Source: an uncultured Candidatus Melainabacteria bacterium (GTDB lineage: Bacteria; Cyanobacteriota; Vampirovibrionia; Gastranaerophilales; Gastranaerophilaceae). Taken from it: DNA of 64,000 nt. Under the pieces are notes generated by a model. That model saw nothing but the letters and a program-made list of their open reading frames with translations. It had not been told where the DNA came from and did not search any database. This document shows, in pieces, positions 47,907 through 55,976 of the stretch (the first letter of the stretch is position 1; each line of letters begins with the position of its first letter). The DNA is taken from positions 1-64,000 of the forward strand of contig CANOTP010000008.1 of NCBI GenBank assembly GCA_947570135.1, given 5' to 3'. The translations under genes and the position numbers were made by a program.

Positions 47907-48625
47907 ATGAAAAAGCAGACTACAGTTAGAATTTCGGGGGGGGTAACTTTTATAGCTCCTTAGGATTTACTTTGGCTGAGCTATTAATCACACTAGGGAT
48001 TATCGGGGTAGTTGCGGCGATGACTATACCCGGGCTGAGGACAAAAATTCGAAAATCTCAGGTTCAAACAGGGGTTAAAGCTGCATATAGTATTTTTTCT
48101 CAGGCAACTAAATTATCAATAAATGAAAATGGCGGTATTTCAGGTTGGGACATTGAGAATGAAGCAGAGTTTTCGGATAAGTATATGGTTCCTTATTTAA
48201 CAAGTGTAACAAAGTTAAAAAACAGGTATACAATGCATACCTTGTATGATGCTGATAATAATGGGAATTCTTTTTTATTTTGGCAGCCTCCGTTTTATCA
48301 ATTACAAAACGGCATGATTTTTACTTGTCACAGGGGGAATGGTTCAGGCATAAAGAATATGATGTTAATCGTTGATATAAACGGTCAAAAAGGTCCAAAT
48401 ACTTTAGGCACTGACGGTTTTGTCTTTGGTTTTAGTAAAGATAAAGATACTTTACTTCCCGGGGGAGCAAGTTGCACAAAAGAAGAAATAATGACAGGTA
48501 AGGGTTGCAGTACTTATGAAGGTTGTTTTAAAGGTGCCGGTTGGAAAGCTTATCAGGGAATGCATTGCGCAGGGTTACTCCAGAAAAATAACTGGGTAAT
48601 ACCTAAAGATTATCCGTTAAAATAG
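47907..48625 (+). CDS. Type IV pseudopilin, out of frame at a G8 tract
   Basis: AAGGAGA precedes the ATG at 47907. The ATG frame reads MKKQTTVRISGGVTFIAP and stops at TAG (47961). The pilin frame, offset by -1, reads GNFYSSLGFTLAELLITLG and continues to 48625. It has the GF cleavage site, Glu at +5 and the DINGQKGPNTLGTDGF motif. The junction is a run of eight G (47936-47943). Nine G, or a -1 slip on GGG GGG, joins the two frames without any other change. The same structure recurs at 55246. As sequenced it would make only an 18-residue peptide unless frameshifting occurs. Confidence 0.8.
47936..47943 (+). repeat. G8 homopolymer at the leader-pilin frame junction (locus 1)
   Basis: The context TCGGGGGGGGTAACTTTT is identical to that at 55273. 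Eight consecutive G is exceptional in this AT-rich sequence. Nine would put the pilin in frame; seven would create a TAA at once. Confidence 0.92.
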
Positions 48626-48665: not shown

Positions 48666-49928
48666 TTAGTTGTTAACTTTTTTAGCAATAACCAATGCAT
48701 TTGATAGAGCGATGCCTCCGTTTTGTTGCGGTCTGTTTACTATTTGACCGTTAACGTACATTACGGTTGAGCCGCCGCCGTCAAGATTAATAGCGTTTGT
48801 ACATCCCAGTTCTTTCATCAGGTTTGCAAGCTCAACAAGTGTCAAACCGATAGAACTGCCCTCTCTTCCGTCTGCTGCGACTAAGATAAGGTCATTGTCT
48901 TTTGTGTACCCTATAGCCGTCCTCGGGTTTCGTCCCCCTATAGATTGAAGCTTTTGGGCAGTCATATCGATAAATATTTGATAATCCTTAACTAAGTAAG
49001 GTCCTCCGCTTATTATGTGTTTAACATTTTCCCATTTTGGGTTTGTGTTAATCCGAATATCAACTTCTTCGGCTCCGAAAAGTTTACCCAGTTTTGATTT
49101 CGGCCCGACAAGGACGTAACCGTTTTCGGGAATGGAAAGGGGATTGGCGGACGCAGCCGTAATTTTGTTTCCGACTATTTGAAGTTGGACACCATACTGA
49201 GGTGAGGCAGGAGCGTATGTTCCCCAATCCCGAGTATATGCTAAAATATATGAGGATAACATTCTTGGCTGGTTTATGTTGTCAATTTTTATTGTTTGGT
49301 TGTTGCCAGTAATTTTCGCATCAAGCTGAACACGCCCGACATCATAACCGTTTTCAAAGATGCCTAATGCAACTCTATCGTAAATCGGACCCGTGTAGAT
49401 TTTTTTATCTATCATAAGTGTTCCTAAAGGGACGCCTGTTTGCGGTTTGAAAAATCCACCGTTAATTGCGGCTATTGCATTTGTGCGTTGCGCGATATTT
49501 CTTAACGTTCTTTTATGCGGTAAAGTTTGAGATGCGGTTGCGGGTTTTACCTCGTAATCTGTTGCGACTTTTTGATTTACTTCAACGATATTAATTCTTA
49601 CGGGACGTCCGTTGTAGTATTTAACCGTTTTGATATGCTTAACCCCGTCAGCTACAGCATTAACCTTTAAACCTTTGTATTTTTCGGCTATTCTTTCTTC
49701 AAATTTTTCTTTTTTAACGGTCGGGTTAAGTTCTTCAATTATATAGCTTCCTGTTTGTTTAAGGCTTTGTGTTGTAATCGCTGAATTTGCGATTAAATCG
49801 TTAGCCAAAATAGGAGGCTGAAACAGGGTATTTGTAAGGAAAAACACTGTGAAAAGCGAAAATGTGAGAACATATTCGCATGTCCTTAGCGGAATAATAA
49901 ATTGTTTGCGCTCGATTAGTGTATCCAT
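48666..49928 (-). CDS. Phosphodiester glycosidase family (NAGPA/DUF2233) exported protein
   Basis: 420-aa protein with an N-terminal membrane anchor or signal (about 14-36, TCEYVLTFSLFTVFFLTN). The C-terminal domain (about 150-420) carries AAINGGFFKPQTGVPLG, the GGRNPRTAIGYT motif, LVAADGREGSSIGLTL and NLDGGGSTVMYV, all hallmarks of the NAGPA-like fold. Bacterial members are implicated in exopolysaccharide or cell-wall glycan processing (for example B. subtilis YoeB-independent NAGPA proteins); the substrate here is unknown. It has a long structured 5' leader. Confidence 0.87.
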   Translation of the reverse strand: MDTLIERKQFIIPLRTCEYVLTFSLFTVFFLTNTLFQPPILANDLIANSAITTQSLKQTGSYIIEELNPTVKKEKFEERIAEKYKGLKVNAVADGVKHIKTVKYYNGRPVRINIVEVNQKVATDYEVKPATASQTLPHKRTLRNIAQRTNAIAAINGGFFKPQTGVPLGTLMIDKKIYTGPIYDRVALGIFENGYDVGRVQLDAKITGNNQTIKIDNINQPRMLSSYILAYTRDWGTYAPASPQYGVQLQIVGNKITAASANPLSIPENGYVLVGPKSKLGKLFGAEEVDIRINTNPKWENVKHIISGGPYLVKDYQIFIDMTAQKLQSIGGRNPRTAIGYTKDNDLILVAADGREGSSIGLTLVELANLMKELGCTNAINLDGGGSTVMYVNGQIVNRPQQNGGIALSNALVIAKKVNN

Positions 49929-55118: not shown

Positions 55119-55245
55119 TTTTGCCTCTTTCTTTTTTACTAAACAGCATATTCATTTTAGTTTAAATATATTTTATAATCAAGTTATGTTGAGTTGCAAA
55201 AGATTGGGCAATATGATAGTATAGAAGAAAAGAGGAGAGAAAAAG

Positions 55246-55976
55246 ATGAAAAATCAAGCTATGATTAGAAAATCGGGGGGGGTAACTTTTCTCGCTCCTT
55301 AGGATTTACGTTAGCAGAGGTATTAATTACCCTTGGGATAATCGGGGTTGTTGCGGCGCTTACAATTCCGTCATTAATGACAAAAATTAACAATATTAAG
55401 CTTAAATCTCAGTTTAAGGAAGCTTATTCTATTTTATCCCAAGTTGTGAAAAGCTATAATGCAGACGAAGAACAGGGAGAAGTTTTTACTCCAAATACTG
55501 TTATTAGCAGAAATTTTTATAAATCATTTTTAAAATATTTCAGTAGTGTAACAGATTGTGGTTATTATGATACAACTGATTCTCCGTTTTGTTTGAATGG
55601 CACGGAAGATAGTAATTATAAAAATTTTGCGAAAAATACTAAATTTATATCAACATTGAGATTAAATGACGGTCAGTTTTATTTGAAAAACGGTATGCTG
55701 TTTATGTTTGATAATAATTCTGCAAATCCGTTTGTTTCGGTTGATATTAATGGTAAAGGTAACAAGCCGAATGTTTGGGGATATGATGTATTTACTTTTG
55801 AATTAAAGTCTTCCGAAAAAGAAGGCGGGTTCGAACTTGTACCAATGGGTGCTCCGGGAACTGTTTTTTCTAATAAAGCTAAATACTGTTCGCTTGACAG
55901 TTCGGATACTTCAAACGGTATTGCTTGTGCTTATTATGCATTACAAAACGAGGAGTATTTTAAAAATTTACCTTAA
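55246..55976 (+). CDS. Type IV pseudopilin, out of frame at a G8 tract
   Basis: GAGGAGAG precedes the ATG at 55246. The ATG frame reads MKNQAMIRKSGGVTFLAP and stops at TAG (55300). The pilin frame, -1 relative, reads GNFSRSLGFTLAEVLITLG and runs to 55976, with DINGKGNKPNVWGYDVF in the soluble domain. The leader matches that of the 47907 gene (MK-Q---R-SGG), and the junction is again eight G (55275-55282). One additional G, or -1 slippage, would give a normal about 242-aa prepilin. The start of the pilin frame alone has no ribosome binding site. Confidence 0.8.
55275..55282 (+). repeat. G8 homopolymer at the leader-pilin frame junction (locus 2)
   Basis: Same TCGGGGGGGGTAACTTTT context and same tract length as at 47936, in an independent gene about 7.3 kb away. 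Confidence 0.92.

Follow-up and report, generated by a model that had tools for sequence, protein, structure and literature searches.

Off-phase poly-G tracts in the leaders of dispersed type IV pilin-like genes of uncultured Melainabacteria: candidate slipped-strand switches

Two pilin-like genes with the same frame break

The window is a 64,000-nucleotide stretch (positions 1 to 64,000, forward strand) of contig CANOTP010000008.1 from an uncultured Candidatus Melainabacteria bacterium (assembly GCA_947570135.1), and contains two genes of the same design, locus 2 and, 7.3 kb upstream, locus 1 (Table 1). At locus 2 the ATG at 55246 opens a short leader ORF that crosses a tract in the context TCG + G8, then TAACTTTT; the zero frame reads TCG GGG GGG GTA ACT TTT and is closed by the TAG at 55300-55302. 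One nucleotide back, the joined frame (GGT AAC TTT TCT CGC TCC TTA GGA TTT ACG) continues without a stop for 231 codons up to the TAA at 55974-55976 and encodes GNFSRSLGFTLAEVLITLGIIGVVAALTIP...; one additional G (or a -1 shift) is required to connect it to the start codon. The joined peptide across the tract is predicted to be ...SGGGNFSR at locus 2 and ...ISGGGNFYSSLGF at locus 1. Direct reading confirms the frame break that the first-pass annotation had claimed for locus 2, along with the G8 design shared with locus 1. An AGGAGA-type motif lies shortly 5' of the start in nearly all copies of the family described below.

Table 1. Coordinates of the two tract-led loci and of the ORF adjoining locus 1
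Feature	Position in the window	Strand	Basis
Locus 1 zero-frame leader ORF, MKKQTTVRISGGVTFIAP, TAG 47961-47963	47907..47963	+	direct reading
Locus 1 G8 tract	47936..47943	+	direct reading
Locus 1 pilin part, joined frame, 227 aa	47942..48625	+	translation, profile matches
420-aa ORF, IAAINGGFFKPQTGVPLGTLM	48666-49928	-	
Locus 2 Shine-Dalgarno-like GGAGAG	55234..55239	+	sequence
Locus 2 zero-frame leader ORF, MKNQAMIRKSGGVTFLAP, 18 codons + TAG	55246..55302	+	direct reading
Locus 2 G8 tract, candidate switch/slip site	55275..55282	+	direct reading
Locus 2 pilin part, joined (GGT AAC) frame, 231 aa	55281..55976	+	translation, profile matches

The products carry a type IV pilin-type N-terminus, with a basic leader, G/A before FTLAE and a conserved hydrophobic helix; the prepilin motif of locus 2 is LG/FTLAE (LG/FTLAEVLITLGIIGVVAA). 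The locus 2 pilin matches the Pfam model N_methyl (PF07963) at 21.9 bits (cut-off 21.2) and TIGR02532, the NCBI prepilin-type N-terminal model, at 19.4 (cut-off 16.3); that of locus 1 matches PF20318 (DUF6613) at 29.1 bits (cut-off 24.3) and TIGR02532 at 19.6 (cut-off 16.3), while falling slightly below the cut-off for N_methyl. The leader junction and first helix of the two pilins are nearly identical; overall they share 40% identity and therefore do not represent a recent copy, which bears out the first-pass reading. The window contains exactly two G8 runs, those of loci 1 and 2, where 0.31 are expected and 3 of 100 shuffles reach two. Immediately downstream of locus 1 and convergent with it is a 420-aa ORF, which may be of the phosphodiester glycosidase type (NAGPA-like).

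Assembly ATPases of the PilB/PilT type (PF00437) were found in all seven of the genomes searched. The genome of the window has about 115 prepilin-like genes alongside these ATPases, and no match to the Peptidase_A24 prepilin peptidase (PF01478) was found in it; the same model gave a match in 12 of the 14 genomes that served as controls. A pilus function of the products is presumed.

A dispersed family in the genome and across the genus

The genome of the window (G000; 1.9 Mb in 16 contigs) contains 21 occurrences of the leader motif TCG(n)TAACTTT in a first search, and more when variants are allowed. A first-helix pilin profile gives 119 matches in G000 and 119 in the sister genome G288, and only 7-22 in each of three other congeners in the same search; subtraction of four short partial matches leaves about 115 pilins in G000. 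At least 32 of these are preceded by poly-G, nearly always G8, a tract pilin being defined by a run of at least six G within 400 nt upstream. Altogether 43 tracts were compiled in G000; a detected pilin follows closely behind 32 of them, and three of the other 11 are contig-end copies of the same leader. Across the whole genome, most runs of seven or more G are located in pilin leaders, and chance is therefore excluded; the tracts are far above chance length and concentrated in one gene class. The first-pass idea of a common mechanism behind the two loci, as opposed to separate accidents, holds; its scale was underestimated, the two being part of at least 32 in the genome and of well over 100 genus-wide. 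The pilin family is expanded in G000 and G288, as single genes scattered among unrelated neighbours.

For comparison, 111 copies to which a start codon could be assigned were gathered from eight congeneric species, with one genome per species; start codons were assigned through a Shine-Dalgarno rule, and the copies of G293, G310 and G100 were collected via their G run by a pattern that misses those with C at the last position. Seven other species of the genus each carry their own version of the leader, which is species-specific and homogeneous, with a tract length that differs by species from G8 to G11. The leader is 28 nt + G9 in G288 (the assembly of record CASLVD010000006.1, an uncultured Candidatus Melainabacteria bacterium) and in G197, 29 nt + G8 in G310, 30-31 nt + G9-10 in G100, 30 nt + G9-10 in G007, and 30 nt + G11 followed by CACCGTTAAAGCTCTCC in G293; the seventh species is G301. 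From the record of G288 the genus belongs to the melainabacteria, presumably to the order Gastranaerophilales. Among paralogs the number of G (n) is 6/7/8/9 in G000, 8/9/10/11 in G288, mostly 10/11/12 in G293, 7/8/9 in G310 and 9/10 in G100. The length from start codon to tract end is conserved (37, 40 or 41) though n varies; leader and tract compensate for one another, as in 28+9 and 29+8 (37) or 29+12, 30+11 and 31+10 (41). This length is the same in 60-81% of paralog pairs, whose leaders differ on average at 5-8 of about 29 positions.

The tract-led genes are biased in orientation. In G000, 31 of 32 tract pilins are on the contig + strand, vs 33 of 83 tract-less pilins (33:50; Fisher p = 3.5e-9); GC skew is positive in 18 of 18 sampled 20-kb stretches, so that + is the G-rich and presumably the leading strand, an orientation shared by all contigs. 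The contigs of G293 (C60-C65) run in either orientation, and there the sign of the local GC skew is matched by 28 of 31 tract leaders (p = 5e-6), including across a change of skew sign within one contig. Such a bias would fit either a leader that spreads via single-stranded DNA at the replication fork or selection on tract orientation. Inspection by eye revealed no conserved gene-end or upstream motif beyond the Shine-Dalgarno sequence, and viral contigs, scanned by pattern and at the protein level, returned neither the leader nor a relative; the idea of a virus-carried element was dropped on account of these blank scans.

Two kinds of in-frame insertion are seen in the family. Palindromic repeats resembling the Rickettsia/Wolbachia palindromic elements (GTCATTCTGAACTTGATTCAGAATCT..., GATTCCGTGTCAAGCACGGAATGACA) lie between leader and pilin helix and add 20-91 stop-free codons to the pre-sequence that is presumably cleaved off (L011, L029, L030, L062, L064 and L067; L118 and L145 in G288; L238-L254 in G310). 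A second insert of about 54 bp (GGTGCTACGCACGTAACTTTGCTACC...) duplicates GFTLAE, for example as GFTLTEGATQVTLLPTVARF and then GFTLAE (L534, L536, L552, L083; G288 L132, L091).

Off-phase tracts and open joined frames

The out-of-frame state is a property of the whole family: 106 of the 111 copies are out of frame, and the five in frame (4.5%) occur as one or two per genome where there are any. Random phase would place one third in frame (p = 2e-13, an optimistic value because the copies are related). Restoring the frame takes one additional G in 68 copies, one fewer in 38 and no change in five; in G293 it is 32 of 42 copies that need one fewer G, and the other 10 the reverse. The in-frame length is 9 G in G000 and 10 in G288. 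The first-pass annotation had raised a systematic sequencing error, and had named as its own refutation the case in which all homologues are in frame and only this assembly has eight G. Homopolymers are error-prone and all the assemblies are fragmented, which would favour miscalled tracts that are truly in frame; this explanation is nonetheless scarcely credible, as the off-phase copies span eight species that require different lengths, the seven others being out of frame at lengths of their own. Some tracts are broken by another base and are still of off-phase length (GGGCGGGG, at L539, and GGGAGGGG in G000; G8AGG, at L221, in G293), and in-frame copies with n=9 and n=10 are called in the same assemblies. 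Sequencing error was rejected as a general cause on these grounds.

The joined frame is stop-free from the tract to FTLAE in 111 of 111 copies, while one alternative frame stops in all 111 and the remaining frame in 103; the wrong frames mostly terminate within about 0-8 codons of the tract. Openness extends to 36 copies with 20-91 additional codons between tract and pilin, all of them open, for which the chance probability is about 1e-49 by mononucleotide shuffles. With an almost immediate stop in either wrong frame and a single G sufficing to restore the protein, the arrangement has the anatomy of a switch: a homopolymer within a coding region, ON at one length modulo 3 and followed by early stops otherwise, as in contingency loci.

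The pilin of locus 2 is about 69% identical to its orthologue in G293, and both are out of frame; dN is 0.24 and dS about 2.8 (saturated), giving a dN/dS of about 0.09. Purifying selection acts on locus 2. From the open joined frames and from this ratio, obtained on two orthologues that are both off, we conclude that genes downstream of the break are in use, and the first-pass proposal of selection on the joined protein is supported. The orthologue in G007 has an ordinary in-frame leader (MKKEYSN/GFTLAE); locus 2 and its orthologues in G293 and G007 adjoin different genes, so that synteny offers no homologous site at which an insertion could be traced. This ordinary leader, the species-specific homogeneity of the tract leaders and a minority of related leaders that are decayed (L083, L090, L535, L541, L550, L264) would be in keeping with a selfish or passively copied poly-G cassette that silences pilins where it lands, leaving the downstream genes to die. 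Such a reading is strongly disfavoured and has a low probability, given the absence of any stop ahead of the pilin helix in the 111 joined frames, the long open pilin ORFs behind the tracts of G000 and the dN/dS of the locus 2 pair.

Slipped-strand switching, recoding and known systems

The tract pilins are probably contingency loci governed by slipped-strand mispairing at poly-G, mostly OFF and one G away from ON. Locus 2 would then be one of a set of dispersed type IV pilin-like genes with a poly-G switch in the prepilin leader; with the right tract length, translation from the ATG would read through leader, tract and pilin, and with a wrong length modulo 3 it would end within the few codons stated above. 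Slipped-strand mispairing during replication would change the tract length, so that adding or dropping a single G could switch each pilin reversibly; most copies lie one G away from ON, with at most a few loci per genome ON in the consensus. Such a mostly OFF state would fit cells that use only a few of their pilins at once, or selection in the gut against ON cells, which would usually be a minority. We infer that tract length changes in the DNA within one species and controls expression. Contigs of G000 end or begin exactly at G8/G9 forks: C1 ends with n=8 and C3 with n=9 ahead of 55 nt of common downstream sequence, and the end of C2 (n=9) overlaps the start of C15, which suggests that G8 and G9 forms of one leader are both present in the reads. 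Contrary to a fast switch, n is more uniform than expected and ON copies make up 4.5% rather than 33%. The first-pass expectation that the spread of n would separate phase variation from programmed slippage met with a mixed outcome, n being narrow within species except for a few copies that are in frame or in the other frame. Every complete genome searched within the genus carries MutS1, which would slow DNA slippage and may keep G8 fairly stable; loss of mismatch repair was ruled out as a cause.

The scarcity of ON copies is also what recoding would predict, in which the tract length in the DNA stays out of frame, a fraction of the pilin arises when RNA polymerase or ribosome slips on the G run, and the off-phase is a standing low-expression setting. 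In the TAAC-type species the zero frame holds a slippery X XXY YYZ, G GGG GGG GTA, at which re-pairing after a -1 shift would be perfect; the length from start to tract end is kept while n varies, and the zero frame stops soon after the tract ahead of a gene under purifying selection. The direction needed is inconstant, most copies needing +1 G and those of G293 mostly the opposite, and a fixed-direction -1 frameshift was rejected for this reason. Folding of six leaders is no better than that of shuffles (z -1.45 to +1.34), which speaks against recoding and removed an RNA hairpin or sequestration of the Shine-Dalgarno sequence as the driver. In bacteria, transcriptional slippage is known chiefly from runs of A or T (PMC3711429, PMC1088944), a further point against recoding. 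Recoding is a tentative alternative to slipped-strand switching. A somewhat more doubtful version holds that a slip-site leader cassette spreads via leading-strand pilin genes and keeps the whole family purposely out of frame, where transcriptional or translational slippage would give each cell traces of many pilins and in-frame DNA forms would be counter-selected; if true, the off-phase would amount to a family-wide poly-G recoding system without a fixed shift direction.

The leader peptide might itself be functional in the zero frame, as an attenuator or an SD:anti-SD switch, with the pilin started by reinitiation. Complements of the Shine-Dalgarno sequence do occur downstream of the tract in several species (GGAGAG/CTCTCC in nearly all G293 copies); several G000 copies are without one, the folding result offers no help, and the window loci and the G293 consensus, read in the joined frame, have no ATG, GTG or TTG ahead of FTLAE, which makes this mechanism very improbable.

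If slipped-strand switching is correct, the family would be among the largest single-family contingency systems known to us, with about 115 pilins and at least 32 led by poly-G, and would provide a concrete route for an uncultured gut commensal to vary its surface. Standard gene calling will split or truncate such pilins in these genomes.

Switching of pilC in Neisseria is said to have been described by Jonsson et al. in 1991. There an intragenic poly-G (G9-20) switches a type IV pilus component ON and OFF (PMC5953494). The likeness lies in this ON/OFF control; pilC concerns one or two pilus-associated proteins and no pilin bank, and the neisserial pilin itself is varied by recombination from pilS, unlike here. 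The poly-G genes of Campylobacter are mostly involved in glycan or surface modification and belong to diverse families; they are not known to form one family under a common leader. Their number, with many intragenic poly-G genes per genome (PMC6321876), is a feature in common. Programmed frameshifting genes such as dnaX and IS elements (PMC3711429) share the conserved out-of-frame layout, slip site and early zero-frame stop; unlike in those, the direction of the shift varies in the present family, and folding of six leaders showed no stimulatory RNA element. The nearest precedent is the sortase-dependent pilus switch of Bifidobacterium (bbr_0113, bbr_1889). In B. breve a G10/G11 tract near the start of two pilus genes puts them out of frame, off by one, in the reference genome, the joined ORF is required for pili, and passage through the mouse gut enriches for in-frame tracts (PMC9187656); both systems belong to gut commensals. 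Bifidobacterium has one or two such loci per genome and sortase pili, whereas the melainabacterial genome has 32 or more dispersed type IV-type pilins that carry the tract within the prepilin leader, under a leader that is homogeneous in each species.
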